64,000 nucleotides of DNA, taken from positions 3,100,001 to 3,164,000 of the forward strand of contig NZ_CP076022.1 in assembly GCF_018622995.1 (NCBI RefSeq). Direction: 5' to 3'. This document shows, one piece after another, positions 8,287 through 42,666 of this stretch. A program made the translations under genes and the position numbers. The stretch comes from Arthrobacter jiangjiafuii (GTDB taxonomy: Bacteria > Actinomycetota > Actinomycetes > Actinomycetales > Micrococcaceae). The notes below the pieces were generated by a model that saw only the letters and a list, made by a program, of their open reading frames with translations, did no database searches and was not told the origin of the DNA. Every line of letters starts with the position of its first letter. Positions within the stretch are counted from its first letter, which is position 1.

Positions 8287-8425
8287 CGACAGTGCAGCTC
8301 CGGCGGGTAACCCGGAGGATCACGCATCGAGAGTGCAGCTCCGGCGGGTGAAATACGGGATTGGCCACCATATCTGCGCTCTCGATCCACGAGTTCAGCC
8401 GAATCCCGCCAGAGCTGCACACTCA
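8287..8425. repeat. Four copies of the 21-bp CGAGAGTGCAG repeat
   Basis: Direct copies lie at 8287-8307 and 8328-8348 (41 bp apart, nearly identical: CGA[C/G]AGTGCAGCTCCGGCG). Inverted copies lie at 8364-8384 and 8405-8425, so the element can fold into nested hairpins. It fills the 565-bp gap between the thiolase operon promoter and the CPBP protease gene. Related copies occur at 40600-40897 and, more distantly, at 24447-24498. No coding potential is seen. Confidence 0.8.
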
Positions 8426-8437
8426 GTGATATGGACA

Positions 8438-8488
8438 TGCCGATTGTCGGGCTCGCGTTCGAACCCCCTGCCGATTGTCGGGCTCGCG
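8438..8488. repeat. Tandem 20-bp repeat with 31-bp period
   Basis: TGCCGATTGTCGGGCTCGCG occurs at 8438-8457 and again, identical, at 8469-8488. The 11 bp between copies read TTCGAACCCCC. The TGTCGGG core and the 31-bp spacing are shared with the array at 24307-24432. The rest of the gap to 8607 shows nothing else recognisable. Confidence 0.8.
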
Positions 8489-8607
8489 CCGGAATAACCG
8501 CGCGCGAACGGCATTTTCCCTACTCTCGGAGAGCAGCCCAGGGTTTTCCATCGAGGGGGCGGGTCCGGCGGTTACATGCCGCCGATTCACAAGCAGGCGA
8601 AACGGCT

Positions 8608-9333
8608 TCAGCCCAACAGCTCCGCAGGAATGGCATAGGTCAGCAGCACGGCCAGCAGGTTCTTCGCGGCGTGGACCGCATAGGAGAGGATGAAGTTCTT
8701 CCCCGCCCAGACGTAGATCCCCACGAGCACCGCACCCATGGCCAGGTACGGCATCAGCACCGGCAGTGCCAGCGCCTCCTTGCCCGCGACATGGATGCCG
8801 GCGAACAAGACCACGGAAATGGCGCAGCAGGCCCAGATGTTCAGGTATCTGCTGAGCTTGCCGATAAGCAGGTGGCGGAAGATGTACTCCTCGACAAACG
8901 GAGCGATCACCACCAGCAGGGGGATGATCAGCAGCGGCGGCAGGGACACCACCAGACCCTGCACCGCTTCCTGGTTCACCGCGGTTTCGGGCGGTCCGGA
9001 AACCAGCACGGCGACGGCGGTCAGCAGCAGCATGGCAAACACGCCGCCGGGAATGATGGCCAGGGTCAGCCACGGGCGGGTGGCCAGGATCCGGGCCTCC
9101 CGCACCGCAAAGCGCCAGGAGGCCCAGACCGCCAGCGCGCCGGCGCAGAGGTAGAAGACCAGGTTCACCACGTAGCCGGCCAGCAGCGGATCGGGAATCA
9201 GCCGGGTCAGCCCGGGGATGCCCAGACCCGGGGCGTAGCTGAAGATCAGGACAAACACCACGTAGAAGCCGGCCGCGAAACCGTCCCGTCGGCTGAAGGT
9301 GTAGGGCAGGGGCGCGATCGCAGCCCGGTTCAT
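8608..9333 (-). CDS. CPBP family intramembrane metalloprotease
   Basis: This 241-residue membrane protein has about six to seven hydrophobic segments. The Abi/CPBP motifs are present: Glu148-Glu149 with Arg153 (EEYIFR), His181 (FAGIH) and His221 with Asn225 (HAAKN). These form the membrane-embedded metal site of Rce1-like proteases. The ATG at 9333 is chosen because the longer frame upstream is low-complexity sequence antisense-like to nnrD. GGTGG precedes the start. It follows nnrD with an 11-bp gap and is likely the last gene of an operon with nnrD and the histidine phosphatase. Its substrate is unknown. Confidence 0.88.
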   Translation of the reverse strand: MNRAAIAPLPYTFSRRDGFAAGFYVVFVLIFSYAPGLGIPGLTRLIPDPLLAGYVVNLVFYLCAGALAVWASWRFAVREARILATRPWLTLAIIPGGVFAMLLLTAVAVLVSGPPETAVNQEAVQGLVVSLPPLLIIPLLVVIAPFVEEYIFRHLLIGKLSRYLNIWACCAISVVLFAGIHVAGKEALALPVLMPYLAMGAVLVGIYVWAGKNFILSYAVHAAKNLLAVLLTYAIPAELLG

Positions 9334-9344
9334 ACTCGCCACCG

Positions 9345-10220
9345 CTAGACCGTCAGCTCCGCCATCACGCGCGGCATCGCGTCCAGCAGCTCCCCGGCCA
9401 GGAAACTCAGCGGACCCTGCGCCGCGGCCAGCCGGTCTCCGGCCGTGGAGTGCAGATAGGTTCCCCAGCAGGCAGCCTGTTCCGGGCTGGCCTGACGGGC
9501 CAGGAAACCGCCAATCGCACCGGCCAGGACATCCCCGCTGCCGGACGTGCCGAGCCCGGCGTTGCCGGCCGGCACCTCCCAGAGGCGGCCGTCCGGAGCC
9601 GCGATCAGCCCTTGGACGGCGACTACGGCCTGGTACTTGGCTGCAATGTCCGCAGCGGCGTGCGCCAGATCCAGTTCCGCGTCCGGATCCTTTTCCAGCA
9701 ACCGGGCAGCTTCCTTCCGGTTCGGTGTCAACACCAGGCGCCCGGCCCACGGCCCATAGACCTCCGGCAGCCCGGGCAGCACGCCCAGCGCGTAGGCGTC
9801 CAGCACCACGGCAGCGATATCGTTCAGCAGCGGAGCGATGCCGCGCAGCAGCTGCCTGGTCGAATCGGCGTCGTCCAGCCCCGGACCGATGACGACGACG
9901 TCGGCCGTTTCCAGATCGGTACCCAGAGCCTGCGGGGCCCGCTTCCCGGAGATCACGCCGTCGTCCTCCGGCAGGGCCACGGCCCCCGATTCCGGCACGG
10001 CCACCGCGACGGCAACGGCGACGGACTCCGTGACGGCGAGGGTCAGCCGCCCCGCCCCGACCCGGAGGGCGGCCCGCCCGGTGAGCATGGCAGCCCCCGG
10101 TGAGCGCCGGGCACCGCCGACCACCACAACGGTGCCGCGGTCCGATTTGTCCGAGGCCTCGCGGTTCACCTGCCAGGCCTTCAGCAGTGCCGGCGTGATG
10201 GCTTCAGCGGGGGTGGACAT
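9345..10220 (-). CDS. nnrD: ADP/ATP-dependent NAD(P)H-hydrate dehydratase
   Basis: This 291-residue protein is a ribokinase-like enzyme that dehydrates S-NAD(P)HX, repairing damaged nicotinamide cofactors in the cytoplasm. VVVVGGARRSPGAA (31-44), VIGPGL (about 110-115) and the nucleotide motif GSGD (227-230) in a Gly-rich loop identify the NnrD/YjeF C-terminal domain. The epimerase domain is not fused to it. The usual LTPHPGE reads LTPNRKE here. ATG 10220 is favoured by AGGAG 9 bp upstream. The start overlaps the histidine phosphatase gene by 17 bp. A VAVAVAVAV run at about 67-75 comes from a short DNA repeat. Confidence 0.9.
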   Translation of the reverse strand: MSTPAEAITPALLKAWQVNREASDKSDRGTVVVVGGARRSPGAAMLTGRAALRVGAGRLTLAVTESVAVAVAVAVPESGAVALPEDDGVISGKRAPQALGTDLETADVVVIGPGLDDADSTRQLLRGIAPLLNDIAAVVLDAYALGVLPGLPEVYGPWAGRLVLTPNRKEAARLLEKDPDAELDLAHAAADIAAKYQAVVAVQGLIAAPDGRLWEVPAGNAGLGTSGSGDVLAGAIGGFLARQASPEQAACWGTYLHSTAGDRLAAAQGPLSFLAGELLDAMPRVMAELTV

Positions 10221-24306: not shown

Positions 24307-24432
24307 CCCTGCGCCGAGGGGGTCGGGATCATGCCCAAACCCTGCGCCGGGTGTCGGGATCATGCCCCGGCCCTGCGCCGGGTGTCGGGATCTTGCCCCA
24401 ACCCTGCGCCGGGTGTCGGGATCATGCCCAAA
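24307..24432. repeat. Tandem array, four units of 31-33 bp
   Basis: Units start at 24307 (33 bp), 24340, 24371 and 24402 (31 bp each). Each opens CCCTGCGCCGGGTGTCGGGA and closes with TC[A/T]TGCCC plus two or three variable bases. Units are contiguous with no spacers, so this is not a CRISPR. It lies between two converging terminators in a 399-bp gene-free gap. The TGTCGGG core and 31-bp period recur at 8438-8488. Confidence 0.9.
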
Positions 24433-38507: not shown

Positions 38508-39917
38508 ATGTCCACCACCCGCCAGCCACGGCTGCAGTTGCAGCAGTTCCATCCCGCGAGGATGTTCGCCAGCCTGCGGGACTTCGTGGACGCCCTGGCC
38601 GCCGGCTCCCCCGCACGGCTGGCCCTGATGGTGTTTGCACTGGTTATCCTGGTGTTCACCGGTCTGCTGTCACTGCCGGCCTCCTCCAGCAGCGGAGAGG
38701 TCACGCCCCTGCACGACGCGCTCTTTACCGCGGTGTCAGCCGTCTGCGTCACCGGGCTCACGGTGGTTTCCACCGCCACGCACTGGTCCGGCTTCGGGCA
38801 GGTCCTGATCCTGATCGCCATCCAGGTGGGCGGACTGGGCATCCTGACCATGGCCTCGCTGCTGGCGCTGGCGGTGAACCGGAAGCTGGGCGTGCGTGGA
38901 AAGCTGATCGCGCAGGAGGGCATGAACACCGGACGGCTGGGCGAGGTCGGATCCCTGCTGCGCATCGTCGTCACCACCACGGTAGCCATTGAGTTGATCC
39001 TGGCGGCCGTGATGGCCCCGCGCTTCATGCTCCTGGGCGAATCCGCTGGCCAGGCGATCTGGCATGCCGTCTTTTACTCGGTCTCGGCCTTTAACAACGC
39101 CGGCTTCACCCCGCACTCCGACGGGCTGGTCCCCTATGACGAGGATCTGTGGATCCTGGTGCCGTTGATGGTGGGAGTCTTTGTCGGCAGCCTGGGCTTC
39201 CCGGTGATCATGGTGCTGATGCGGAGCAAGTTCCATGTCCGGCAGTGGAACCTGCACACCAAGCTCACCCTGCTGGTCACGACCATCCTGCTGGTGGGCG
39301 GCAGCATCCTGTGGGGCGCCTTCGAGTGGTTCAACACCGCCACCATCGGGGAGATGAACGTTGCGGACCGGATCCTGCATTCGGTGTTCGCCTCCGTGAT
39401 GACCCGCTCCGGCGGTTTCAGCCTGGTCAATATGTCCGACCTGGATTCGAGCACGCTGGTCATCACCGACATGCTGATGTTTGCCGGCGGCGGCTCGGCG
39501 TCCACCGCCGGCGGCATCAAAGTCACCACCCTGGCCGTGATTTTCCTGGCCGTGGTGGCCGAGGCCCGCGGCGACGCCGACGTGCGGGCCTTTGGCCGCA
39601 CCATCGCCGCCAGTGCCATGCGGGTGGCGATCTCCGTGGTCATTCTCGGCGCGACCCTGGTGGCCGTCTCCACCGTGGTGCTGCTGGCCATCACCAAGGA
39701 GACGCTGGAGCCGGTGCTGTTCGAGGTGATTTCCGCGTTTGCAACGGTAGGGCTGAGTATTGGATTGAGCGAGGCGCTGCCGCCGGAGGGCAAATATGTG
39801 CTCTCCGCCCTGATGTTCGCCGGCCGGGTGGGCACCATTACCCTGGCTGCGGCTCTGGCCATCCGGCAGCGCAACACGCTGTACCACTACCCCGAGGAAA
39901 GGCCGATCATTGGCTGA
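38508..39917 (+). CDS. TrkH/KtrB family potassium transporter
   Basis: This 469-residue membrane protein is built of four M1-P-M2 repeats, each with a selectivity-filter Gly: VCVTGLT, NNAGFT, TRSGGFS and ATVGLSIG. This is the usual layout of the SKT superfamily of K+ channels/transporters. The first 35 residues are cytoplasmic and polar. The following gene encodes its RCK gating subunit and overlaps it by 8 bp. Because that partner has one RCK pair only, the system is closer to Ktr than to classical TrkAH. It may take up K+ driven by Na+ or by the membrane potential. Confidence 0.93.
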   Translation: MSTTRQPRLQLQQFHPARMFASLRDFVDALAAGSPARLALMVFALVILVFTGLLSLPASSSSGEVTPLHDALFTAVSAVCVTGLTVVSTATHWSGFGQVLILIAIQVGGLGILTMASLLALAVNRKLGVRGKLIAQEGMNTGRLGEVGSLLRIVVTTTVAIELILAAVMAPRFMLLGESAGQAIWHAVFYSVSAFNNAGFTPHSDGLVPYDEDLWILVPLMVGVFVGSLGFPVIMVLMRSKFHVRQWNLHTKLTLLVTTILLVGGSILWGAFEWFNTATIGEMNVADRILHSVFASVMTRSGGFSLVNMSDLDSSTLVITDMLMFAGGGSASTAGGIKVTTLAVIFLAVVAEARGDADVRAFGRTIAASAMRVAISVVILGATLVAVSTVVLLAITKETLEPVLFEVISAFATVGLSIGLSEALPPEGKYVLSALMFAGRVGTITLAAALAIRQRNTLYHYPEERPIIG

Positions 39918-40578
39918 CAGACCAGCTCATAATGCTCCCGTCCTGGTGATCGGACTGGGACGCTTTGGCTCCGCCACTGCCGAACAGCTGGTGAAGCAGG
40001 GGCGGGAGGTCCTCGCCATCGAACGCGATCCGGTCCTCGTGCAGAAGGCCTCCGGCATCCTCACGCACGTTGTGCAGGCCGACGCCACCAACATCGACGC
40101 GCTGACCCAGCTTGGGGCGCAGGACTTTTCCGCCGCCGTCGTCGGCGTGGGCACCTCGATCGAATCCAGCGTGCTGATCACCGTGAACCTGGTGGACCTG
40201 GGGATCGAGCACCTGTGGGTCAAGGCCATCACCTCCGCGCACGGCAAGATCCTGACCCGGATCGGCGCCAATCACGTGATCTATCCGGAGGCCGACGCCG
40301 GCCGGCGCGCCGCCCACCTGGTGGGCGGGCGCATGCTCGACTTCATCGAGTTCGACGACGATTTCGCCATCGTGAAGATGTATCCGCCGCGCGAGACCCA
40401 GGGCTTCACGCTCGGCGAATCCAAGGTGCGCTCCAAGTACGGGGTGACAGTGGTGGGCGTGAAGTCCCCGGGCGAGGACTTCACGTACGCCCGGCAGGAC
40501 ACCAAGGTCTCCTCCCGCGACATGCTCATTGTCTCCGGGCACGTGGACCTGCTCGAGCGCTTCGCCGCCCGGCCGTAA
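39910..40578 (+). CDS. TrkA/KtrA family RCK potassium uptake regulator
   Basis: This 222-residue cytoplasmic subunit has one RCK_N Rossmann domain (VLVIGLGRFGSATAEQL, residues about 11-27, and the acidic strand end AIERD) and one RCK_C domain from about 135. It binds nucleotides (ATP/ADP or NAD) and forms the gating ring under TrkH/KtrB. The start is TTG inside the trkH-like gene; AGGAAAGG about 9 bp upstream supports it. Its 3' end faces the repeat island at 40597-40897. Confidence 0.92.
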   Translation: MADRPAHNAPVLVIGLGRFGSATAEQLVKQGREVLAIERDPVLVQKASGILTHVVQADATNIDALTQLGAQDFSAAVVGVGTSIESSVLITVNLVDLGIEHLWVKAITSAHGKILTRIGANHVIYPEADAGRRAAHLVGGRMLDFIEFDDDFAIVKMYPPRETQGFTLGESKVRSKYGVTVVGVKSPGEDFTYARQDTKVSSRDMLIVSGHVDLLERFAARP

Positions 40579-40599
40579 CTTTCGGGGCGTGACCCGCGG

Positions 40600-40897
40600 C
40601 GAGAGGGCACGTATGGCGGCTTCCCGGGCAGACCGTCCGGGCTCGGAGACGCCGAGAGTGCACGTATGGCGGCTTCCAACGCGTCTTGGTCGCCAGATCT
40701 GCACTCTCGCTTCAGCCCCGCGGCGAGAGCGCACGTCTGGCGGCTTCCCGGGCAGACCGTCCGCTCGGGGACGCCGAGAGTGCACGTATGGCGGCTTCCA
40801 ACGCGTCTTGGTCGCCAGATCTGCACTCTCGCGACACCGAAGTCGCCCGATCTGCACTCTCGCTTCAATCCCGCGGCGAAAGGGCACGTACGGCCGC
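40600..40897. repeat. Repeat island: eight copies of the 21-bp CGAGAGTGCA element
   Basis: Direct copies start at 40600, 40653, 40724, 40775 and 40877; inverted copies start at 40689, 40811 and 40842. Consensus is CGAGAGTGCACGTATGGCGG (direct) or, complemented, CGAGAGTGCAGATCTGGCG (inverted copies). They sit in a larger tandem duplication: the segment 40597-40720 (124 bp) recurs from 40721 with an extra 29-bp copy inserted. Facing copies form hairpins of about 19 bp with loops of about 19 nt. The whole 350-bp gap between the convergent trkA-like and proC genes is made of this; no gene is seen. Confidence 0.9.
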
Positions 40898-40928
40898 GGC
40901 TTCCGCGGGGCGTTCGCCCCGGCCGGTG

Positions 40929-41777
40929 CTACTTCGCGGAAAGCTCCGCGGTGATTTCCGCCGCGCGCTCAGCTGCAGCACGGGCGCCGCGCGCTATGAC
41001 GTCCGGCAGGCCCTGCTCGTCAAAGCTGCGGATGGCCGCCTCGGTGGTGCCGTTGGGGCTGCTCACGGCCCGGCGCAGCGCGGTGGCGTCGGCACCGGGT
41101 TCGGCCAGCATGTAACCGGCGCCGGCCACGGTGTCCCGGGCCAGGATGGCTGAGAGCTCAGGATCCAGGCCCAGTTCCACACCGGCCCGGGCCATGGCCT
41201 CGGCGAGATAGAAGGCGTACGCGGGTCCGGATCCGCTCACGGCCGAGACGGCGTCGACCTGTTCCTCGGGAACCTGCACCACGCGGCCGGTGGAGGAGAG
41301 CAGCTCGGCGGCCAGCGCCATCTCCTCCTCGCCGGCGGACGTGCCGGCGGACAGGGACACCACGCCGCGGCCCAGCCGGGAGGGGGTGTTGGGCATGGAC
41401 CGGATCACGGGCTGGCCGGCGGGAAGCCCGGCTTCGAGCAGCTCCAGCGACACAGCCGCCGCCACGCTGATCACCACGGTGCCGGGCTTCAGCACGGGCG
41501 CAATCTCCGCTAACAGCGCCGCAACGCCCACGGGCTTGACCCCGAGGATGACGACGTCGGCGCCGGCCGCAGCGGTGCGGTTGGCTTCCGGATCCTCGTT
41601 GCCTGCCAGCACGGTGAGCCCGTCGTAGCGTTCGCGCAGCTCGGCTGCCCGCTCCGGGCGCCGCACGGTGGCGCTCACCTGCGCAGCCGGCAGGCCGCCG
41701 GCCAGGATTCCGCCAAGGATGGCTTCGTTCATTGAGCCGCAGCCCAAAAAGGTCAGATTGATATGTCCGGTATCCAT
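40929..41777 (-). CDS. proC: Pyrroline-5-carboxylate reductase
   Basis: This 282-residue enzyme makes proline from pyrroline-5-carboxylate with NAD(P)H. The dinucleotide loop is FLGCGSMNEAILGG. VILGVKPVG, the RSMPNTPSRLGRGV block and VSAVSGSGPAYAFYLAEAM are the family signature, with GATALRRAVSSPNGTTEAA near the C-terminus. It lies 58 bp downstream of the sugar isomerase gene on the same strand and ends beside the repeat island. Ppx, isomerase and proC in this order match the mycobacterial neighbourhood. Confidence 0.95.
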   Translation of the reverse strand: MDTGHINLTFLGCGSMNEAILGGILAGGLPAAQVSATVRRPERAAELRERYDGLTVLAGNEDPEANRTAAAGADVVILGVKPVGVAALLAEIAPVLKPGTVVISVAAAVSLELLEAGLPAGQPVIRSMPNTPSRLGRGVVSLSAGTSAGEEEMALAAELLSSTGRVVQVPEEQVDAVSAVSGSGPAYAFYLAEAMARAGVELGLDPELSAILARDTVAGAGYMLAEPGADATALRRAVSSPNGTTEAAIRSFDEQGLPDVIARGARAAAERAAEITAELSAK

Positions 41778-41835
41778 CCACCGATTCTGTCACGGCACCC
41801 AGGCAGCGCCCGTATCGCGGGAAGCGCTCCGGTGG

Positions 41836-42666
41836 TTATTCGGAGATCTGGCCGAGGTTCATCCGCGCGAATTCCAGCGTCTGCTTGAGCTGGTCCTCCC
41901 GCTCACCGGCCCCCTTGACCTTGCGGGTGCTGACCTCGATGGCCACCACGCCGCTGAACCCGGTTTCGCTCAGGTATTGCAGGGCCTCGGCGCAGCGCTG
42001 GGTTCCCTCCCCGGGCAGCATATGTTCGTCGCGGCCGTTCGGCGTGCCGTCGGTCAGGTGCACGTGGTGCAGGCGGGGGCCGAGCTTGAGCAGTTCCTCG
42101 TAGGAATCCATGCCGGCGATCGCAGCGTGGGAGAAGTCCCACGTGACGTGCTCGTAGGGTTCGGTCACGGGATTCCAGTGCGGCAGGTAGGCCTTGGCCT
42201 CGCGGCCGCGGACCCGCCACGGGTACATGTTCTCCACGGCAATGATCACGCCGTACTGCTCGGCGATGTGCCGCACGCCCTCGGCAAAGTTCTCGGCGTA
42301 ACCGGACTGCCAGCGGAAAGGCGGGTGCGCGACGACGGTGGTGGCCCCCACCTCCGCAGCCATGGCGGCGGAGAGTTCAATCTTGGTCCAGGCCTTGCCC
42401 CAGACCTGCTGGGTCAGCAGCAGGGTGGGCGCGTGGATGGCCATGATCGGCTGTCCGTACCGCTCGCTCAGGGCGTTCAGTGTCTGCGGGTTCTGGCTGT
42501 CGGCATTGCCGGTGACCATGATTTCCACGCCGTCGTACCCCAGGTCGTGGGCGATGGCGAAGGTGTCATGGACGCTGAGTGGATACACGGAGGCACTGGA
42601 CAGGGCTACGGGAATGGCTGCTGCACTGGTGTCCTCCGGTACGGAGATCTTCGGTGAGGTACTCAT
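41836..42666 (-). CDS. Sugar phosphate isomerase/epimerase family TIM barrel
   Basis: This 276-residue xylose-isomerase-like TIM-barrel protein has likely metal ligands in YDGVEIMV, IAVENMYPW, VTWDFSHAAIAG, HVHLTD and VVAIEVSTR. The family holds a divalent metal and acts on sugars, inositols or hydroxypyruvate; the substrate is not resolvable. The mycobacterial counterpart Rv0498 is in the same gene order. The first 20 residues are polar and variable. Its ATG follows directly on the ppx TGA, so translation is coupled. Confidence 0.87.
   Translation of the reverse strand: MSTSPKISVPEDTSAAAIPVALSSASVYPLSVHDTFAIAHDLGYDGVEIMVTGNADSQNPQTLNALSERYGQPIMAIHAPTLLLTQQVWGKAWTKIELSAAMAAEVGATTVVAHPPFRWQSGYAENFAEGVRHIAEQYGVIIAVENMYPWRVRGREAKAYLPHWNPVTEPYEHVTWDFSHAAIAGMDSYEELLKLGPRLHHVHLTDGTPNGRDEHMLPGEGTQRCAEALQYLSETGFSGVVAIEVSTRKVKGAGEREDQLKQTLEFARMNLGQISE

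Follow-up and report, generated by a model that had tools for sequence, protein, structure and literature searches.

The gap between a TrkA-like gene (39946..40578, plus strand) and the convergent proC gene for pyrroline-5-carboxylate reductase (40929..41777, minus strand), in a 64,000-nucleotide stretch of the Arthrobacter jiangjiafuii chromosome (NZ_CP076022.1, 3,100,001 to 3,164,000; here called the window), holds an island of short direct and inverted repeats, and the locus raises the question of what this island is. The original prediction offered a terminator for both transcripts, a protein-binding repeat, or the product of a REP-type transposase. The second suggestion appears to be right, judged from the sequences: the island would be an array of double-stranded sites for a dedicated protein, whose gene lies at another place in the genome. 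That protein, which joins an AbiEi-like half to an endonuclease half resembling Vsr (AbiEi-Vsr), and the arrays very probably form a cognate double-stranded pair, and a probability of roughly 0.6 is assigned to a repeat-plus-nuclease system that resembles REPIN-RAYT in its working and is built of unrelated parts.

Half-sites placed at helical steps

Pattern matching in the window recovered the eight predicted elements, five on the plus and three on the minus strand, with match starts at 40600(+), 40653(+), 40691(-), 40724(+), 40775(+), 40813(-), 40844(-) and 40877(+) and element lengths of 19-24 bp. Set in a 23-bp frame, the half-sites begin with element 1 (40600..40622, +) and element 2 (40653..40675, +), which faces element 3 (40687..40709, -) at 56 bp, first base to first base. 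Elements 3 and 4 (the latter at 40724..40746, +) are back to back at a distance of 15 bp, and element 4 lies 51 bp from element 5 (40775..40797, +), which faces element 6 (40809..40831, -), again at 56 bp. Element 7 (40840..40862, -) is in tandem with element 6 (31 bp), and element 8 (40877..40899, +) is degenerate, with three mismatches at the 15 fixed positions. The tandem duplication within the island was found as described, with a length of 122-124 bp, while the copies thought to fill the whole gap occupy about 85% of its 350 bp. The window as a whole contains 14 matches with at most three mismatches, compared with a mean of 4.1 and a maximum of 13 in 100 shuffles.

A search of the source genome (G000; 3.59 Mb, one contig; other G numbers denote compared genomes) revealed a dispersed family, with 114 matches when two mismatches are allowed versus 10 for the reversed pattern. 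The G000 sites group into 17 islands of at least two sites; over the islands of G000, G004 and G003 the most frequent layout is >><<. A 23-bp weight matrix (score of at least 9) run over the fetched loci of G000, G004 and G003 detected 128, 118 and 73 sites, respectively, versus 1, 3 and 1 in reversed sequence. The half-site consensus is CGAGAGTGCAGCTnTGGCGGGTT; the 97 distinct copies in G000 all agree at positions 9 and 10 and are at least 90% conserved at positions 2, 3, 6, 8, 13, 16, 17 and 19. An anchored head-to-head search of 296 genomes of the class gave matches in 48 and was too loose (9 versus 0 in G000; 0-3 forward versus 0-2 control in the others). The head-to-head model R2, adjusted to a single type of motif, had matches with E values of 0.01 or better in 56 of the 295 genomes of the family; the G024, G006 and G018 loci were picked among the R2 matches listed, which makes their head-to-head spacing non-independent, and it was left uncounted.

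The spacing of sites detected singly in G000, G004 and G003 is nearly fixed. Of 62 head-to-head neighbour pairs, 60 have their first bases 56 bp from each other. Among 157 tandem pairs the distance is 30-32, 40-43 or 51-53 bp in all but three, and 30 of the 35 back-to-back pairs are spaced by 5, 15-16, 26-27, 36 or 47 bp. These distances are steps of about 10.4 bp, one turn of DNA. Spacer sequences between sites vary, and spacer homology therefore does not explain the fixed spacing. The grids hold across motif types, with facing pairs at 54, 56 or 66 bp in 20 of 22 cases (the others at 96 and 138 bp) and tandem copies at 31, 40-41, 43 or 52 bp. Half-sites of about 23-24 bp, placed head to head and in tandem in this way, would put bound copies on one face of the helix.

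A transcription terminator acting in both directions, or an RNA hairpin of another kind, is very improbable as an explanation. The island does sit in a convergent gap, and its fold is better than that of shuffled sequences (z -5.3), but inverted repeats of any kind fold well. The facing arms are indeed 19 nucleotides long and 84% complementary; a hairpin as the selected form nevertheless found no support. At degenerate positions the arms of facing pairs agree no better than shuffled arms in each genome taken separately, so that no covariation is seen; pairing in the 58 facing modules is at chance level with the three genomes taken apart, and at position 14 in G000 it is rarer than expected (4 of 20 versus 8.4). 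Some pairing measures exceed shuffles when all 58 modules are pooled (6, 13 and 8 of 500 shuffles were equally high on three of five measures), an excess read as a consensus shift between genomes. The chance-level pairing within genomes means that the hairpin is not the conserved feature, and a row of predicted binding sites on double-stranded DNA fits better. Copies in tandem, with their distances of about 31, 41 and 52 bp, moreover, have no role in a hairpin.

No Rfam match was found at E 1 in 39500-42000, and no terminator-like site (a stem-loop followed by a T run) in 40400-41100, where shuffles gave a mean of 0.2. With no such site, no arm covariation and a helical spacing, the suggested terminator for both transcripts found no support, and the Rfam-type RNA, terminator and hairpin readings were rejected. 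Placement agrees: the 51 islands of the three genomes fall between 17 convergent, 26 co-directional and 8 divergent gene pairs, as oriented by a simple purpose-made gene caller. An enrichment between convergent genes is present (17 of 51 versus 21 of 182 other neighbouring gene pairs from the same loci), but 34 of 51 islands lie elsewhere, which argues against a terminator and rules out placement solely between convergent genes.

Also extremely improbable is a classical REP/BIME family spread by a RAYT (Y1) transposase. The copies are dispersed, intergenic and in inverted pairs, and to that extent the likeness to REP/BIME elements noted earlier, including a REP-like logic, has stood; the hairpin form has not, as double-stranded helical phasing takes its place. 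Nor has the RAYT-type source: no Y1_Tnp (PF01797) transposase was found in any of the five genomes searched, G000 included, while the same search was positive in 5 of 14 control genomes, and a RAYT/REP identity was rejected on this ground.

A predicted AbiEi-Vsr nuclease gene beside the arrays

The largest G000 island (17 copies) begins within the stop codon of a gene for a 316-amino-acid protein (G000 1,084,045-1,084,995), the candidate partner gene, and an array likewise starts at the stop codon of the nuclease-type gene in G003 and G018. The two largest islands, of 14 and 17 sites (L034:3725-4259 and 8994-9645), are about 5 kb apart and bracket an MFS transporter gene, a biotin carboxylase gene and the nuclease-type gene. 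The N-terminal half of the protein is predicted to be an AbiEi-like DNA-binding region and the C-terminal half an endonuclease like Vsr and I-Bth0305I. Alignment with VIA-align gave an AbiEi-like fold in the former and, in the latter, a Vsr-type fold with conserved acidic and histidine residues, predicting a nuclease; Foldseek returned no PDB match below E 0.001 for the protein. Four residues of the nuclease half, E213, D246, H263 and D272, fall in alignment columns that do not vary across all 76 aligned homologues.

These domain assignments also bear on a role in defence, in which the arrays would tether a harmful nuclease or mark self, with the enzyme released against foreign DNA. PADLOC AbiEi models match the N-terminal half, and AbiE is described as an abortive-infection system (PMC3985639). 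A type II restriction model gives weak matches in 15 of 76 homologues. No defence gene, however, was present among the G000-locus neighbours tested (MFS transporter, biotin carboxylase, Maf), and we know of no defence phenotype for such proteins; the defence reading is considered improbable.

The protein was matched at E 1e-10 or better in all 29 genomes of the genus searched. A homologue with at least 49% identity over most of its length is present in 27, with one or two homologues per congener; G006 has two pieces of the gene only and G013 a 38% relative only, and these two, lacking an intact orthologue, are left out of the 27 congeners compared below. Recurrent 11-mers exceeded the 95% level of other windows in 21 of 27 downstream flanks and 2 of 27 upstream flanks, with the threshold derived from 600-bp windows and the flanks measured over about 700 bp.

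The repeat types downstream of the homologues differ by lineage: the ATCCTTCGTGCAGAT type in G007 and G011, TnGTACAGATAACGGG in G012, G587, G015, G594, G014 and G020, and GATCTACTGAGCAGATAACGGG in G009. Fourteen more congener homologues were inspected by eye, and 12 of them have other motifs next to them; G002 was weak, and in G574 none was marked. The motif in the G007 flank also fills the trkA-proC gap of that genome (69 shared 11-mer positions). Genome-wide, the ATCCTTCG type numbers 112 copies in G007, 39 in G003, 36 in G021, 33 in G004, 29 in G001 and 17 in G011, and at most 6 in each of the other 23 genomes. The TnGTACAG type numbers 64 in G012, 63 in G587, 45 in G014, 27 in G007, 22 in G001 and 17 each in G015, G594 and G020, and is absent from 11 of 29 genomes. 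Flank and genome-wide counts correlate for three patterns (Spearman 0.59, 0.68 and 0.70; pattern A covers 23 of the 27 congeners). ATCCTTCGTGCAGAT elements are numerous in G001, G004 and G003, where the motif is missing next to the gene (G001, G004) or scarce there (G003); this surplus may stem from an older array or another homologue.

The association extends to 80 named homologues from Arthrobacter, Paenarthrobacter, Pseudarthrobacter, Agrococcus, Microbacteriaceae and others. Tandem repeats were detected in 39 downstream and 26 upstream flanks, compared with 53 of 1003 windows farther off, and their dominant spacing was in phase with 10.4 bp in 52 of the 65 flanks versus 9 of the 53 distant windows (22% by chance). 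Four loci with stops or unusual length (L259, L260, L284 and L286) are outside protein alignment A4 and inside these flank counts, and the downstream flank of L260 is misplaced, its stop search having run on. The homologues occupy 29 gene-neighbourhood contexts, 23 of which include at least one repeat-flanked gene; among contexts seen at one locus, 13 of 18 are repeat-flanked. The flank motif TGAGAGAGGANC occurs 3-29 times in six Paenarthrobacter-type genomes (control 0-2), two of which were expected to be low for having a different flank motif, and 0-1 times in seven other genomes.

Three homologues close to the Arthrobacter ones (L252, L267 and L269) are in a record titled Sporosarcina beigongshangi, which may be misnamed or contaminated. 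Short palindromes like CGAGAGTGCTGAAGTGGCG repeat at 55 or 73-74 bp at L120, L121, L123 and L125 in G036, from another family of the order, and are possible relatives of the same kind.

Turnover of arrays and its proposed cause

An intact gene and the CGAGAG/GTG array type, which is that of the window, occur together in five congeners, and the gene tree groups these as a single clade (support 100/99). This clade is rejected by proC (p 5e-36), on which four changes are needed; proC, a single marker, is a limited stand-in for the species tree, and the array-type group was fixed after the R2 matches and protein identities were already known. Identities agree with this result, since G024 and G018 show 66 and 64% in the nuclease-type gene and 71 and 70% in proC, whereas G007, G011, G014, G001 and G021 show 50-52% in the nuclease-type gene and 86-89% in proC. 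That the repeats form a family of set geometry, adjoin the gene and diversify along with it is the outcome of these sequence comparisons.

The trkA-proC gap was read in 29 congeners, with the trkA tail unrecognised in four. In G000, G003, G004, G007 and G009 it is occupied by the element type of the respective genome. The gap is only 5-42 bp long in G005, G006, G011, G014, G017, G018, G019, G021, G023 and G359, and holds no array in G001 (78 bp) or in G024 (70 bp, with one possible degenerate copy); G008 and G574 have the G009 type, and other repeats or none are found in the remaining congeners. The short gaps of these twelve congeners indicate that arrays come and go, and comparison thus points to array gain or loss at this one synteny-checked gap. 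The gap of G012, G587, G015, G016 and G594 (L169-L171, L173, L174) contains ATCCCTTCGGTTTGT, two copies facing two.

Turnover bears directly on the view that the array is a static operator or architectural element, from which the protein regulates its neighbours or folds the chromosome, the arrays evolving in place with the protein and the nuclease half having no part in any spread. Helical phasing fits the cooperative binding that this view entails, and AbiEi proteins are autorepressors that bind 23-bp repeats (PMC3985639, PMC7319586), which counts in its favour. Among the islands compared in fetched loci (16 in G000, 20 in G004, 12 in G003, 10 in G024, 10 in G006 and 4 in G018), orthologous ones also persist, six of them between G024 and G006. 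The static view, the chief alternative, is nevertheless considered unlikely. No promoter is expected between convergent genes, where 17 of 51 islands lie; only two island positions of G000 are found in G024 and one each in G006 and G018, chiefly at the nuclease locus, although gene-order loss could be part of the cause; the trkA-proC gap measures 5-42 bp in ten congeners and 70-78 bp in two more; and the four nuclease-half residues are invariant.

For the repeat-plus-nuclease system the following cycle is proposed, in which we infer binding by the AbiEi-Vsr protein, cutting, and spread through cutting. The AbiEi-like half would bind arrays cooperatively along one helix face, and the nuclease half would nick or cut at the bound arrays. 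Repair or recombination after cutting would then copy and homogenise them, and arrays would in this way multiply in intergenic gaps, tracking the specificity of the protein. Such a cycle would account for the turnover of arrays, for their tendency to follow the gene type, for the excess in convergent gaps and for their survival past the gene in G006. The odds for nuclease-driven spread itself are put at slightly better than even.

Several observations weigh against this interpretation. The AbiEi structural match has a root-mean-square deviation of 6.2 over 176 residues, Pfam AbiEi families match 2-3 of 76 homologues, and the G000 protein scores 20.5 bits for DUF559, just below the cut-off of 20.6. 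Islands lie between the same genes at ten loci in G000 and G004 and at five in G000 and G003, so that any spread must be slow. The pairing of gene and array is not exclusive, and their adjacency is partly common descent. By the threshold used, six of 27 congeners (G001, G002, G005, G017, G021 and G023) lack a repetitive downstream flank, and the ATCCTTCG type, abundant in G001 (29) and G004 (33), has no match beside their gene. The trkA-proC gaps of G008 and G574 (L172, L176) carry the type of the G009 gene and not that of their own. The matrix of shared 11-mers is not diagonal throughout, because the types have the core CAGATAACGGG in common; the G003 flank has 34 positions in common with the gap of G007 but a single one with that of G003 itself. 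A context of 13 loci (Pseudarthrobacter and others) has three flagged loci and no tandem repeats, and the highest TGAGAGAGGANC count (29) is in the L286 genome, whose flank motif is mostly unlike the pattern. At L320 (G006:C8:221000-227000), finally, the gene has lost its middle while the adjacent array and other islands persist.

Further repeats occur in the window. A second island of the same family (8287..8425) has copies at 8287(+), 8328(+), 8366(-) and 8407(-), with spacings of 41, 56 and 41 bp, and a weak fifth copy lies near it at 8552(+). A second, different type of dispersed repeat (GCCGANTGTCGGG or GCCGGGTGTCGGGATCATGC) is present at 8439..8489 (+) in two copies 31 bp apart and at 24346..24427 (+) in three copies, also 31 bp apart. 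It matches the array (GCCGAGTGTCGGGAT type) that flanks a second nuclease-type (AbiEi-DUF559) homologue of G000 (C1:2939217-2940137).

Relation to known systems

DUF559-type proteins have, to our knowledge, no known function in Pfam. No explanation for such Arthrobacter intergenic repeats, and no paper tying DUF559/AbiEi-like fusions to repeats, was found in the open-access literature searched. We give even odds to an undescribed class, in which actinobacterial AbiEi-Vsr fusions would use nicking and repair to maintain their own phased, double-stranded arrays and spread them through intergenic DNA, with protein specificity and array sequence co-evolving in each lineage. If this is true, both the DUF559-type proteins and the Arthrobacter intergenic repeats gain a testable function, REPIN-RAYT gains an independent non-HUH counterpart, and the natural protein/target pairs of congeners could be a source of a recognition code for a modular DNA-binding nuclease.

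Transcription factors or nucleoid proteins with helically phased arrays of sites are another parallel, in that cooperative binding on one face would account for the spacing; we know of none that diversifies together with a nuclease gene lying next to its own target sites. The Vsr-fold homing endonuclease I-Bth0305I and Vsr differ in that the gene here is free-standing, chromosomal and fused to an AbiEi-like half, with no evidence of intron homing.

The type IV toxin-antitoxin system AbiE (AbiEi of S. agalactiae, Rv2827c of M. tuberculosis) shares the AbiEi models and fold of the N-terminal half. Known AbiEi operators are 23-bp inverted repeats with gaps of 3, 4 or 13 bp; the predicted half-sites here, 23-24 bp long with gaps of 11 bp (facing) and 4 or 14-15 bp (back to back), come near to these values. 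Unlike AbiE, the present protein has a C-terminal endonuclease half, no AbiEii (DUF1814) toxin gene is found among the G000-locus neighbours tested, and the sites occur at 17 genomic islands and not at its own promoter alone.

Like REPIN-RAYT, the system combines dispersed intergenic inverted repeats with a low-copy gene on the chromosome that encodes an enzyme and has its own repeats next to it; the motifs are lineage-specific, and the repeats outlast a broken gene, here in G006. RAYT is described as a single-copy, vertically inherited gene (PMC8049555). The components differ: an HUH enzyme acts there and an AbiEi-like and Vsr-like protein is predicted here, and in place of single-strand hairpins there are double-stranded, helically phased arrays, with tandem copies at about 20, 31, 41 or 52 bp.
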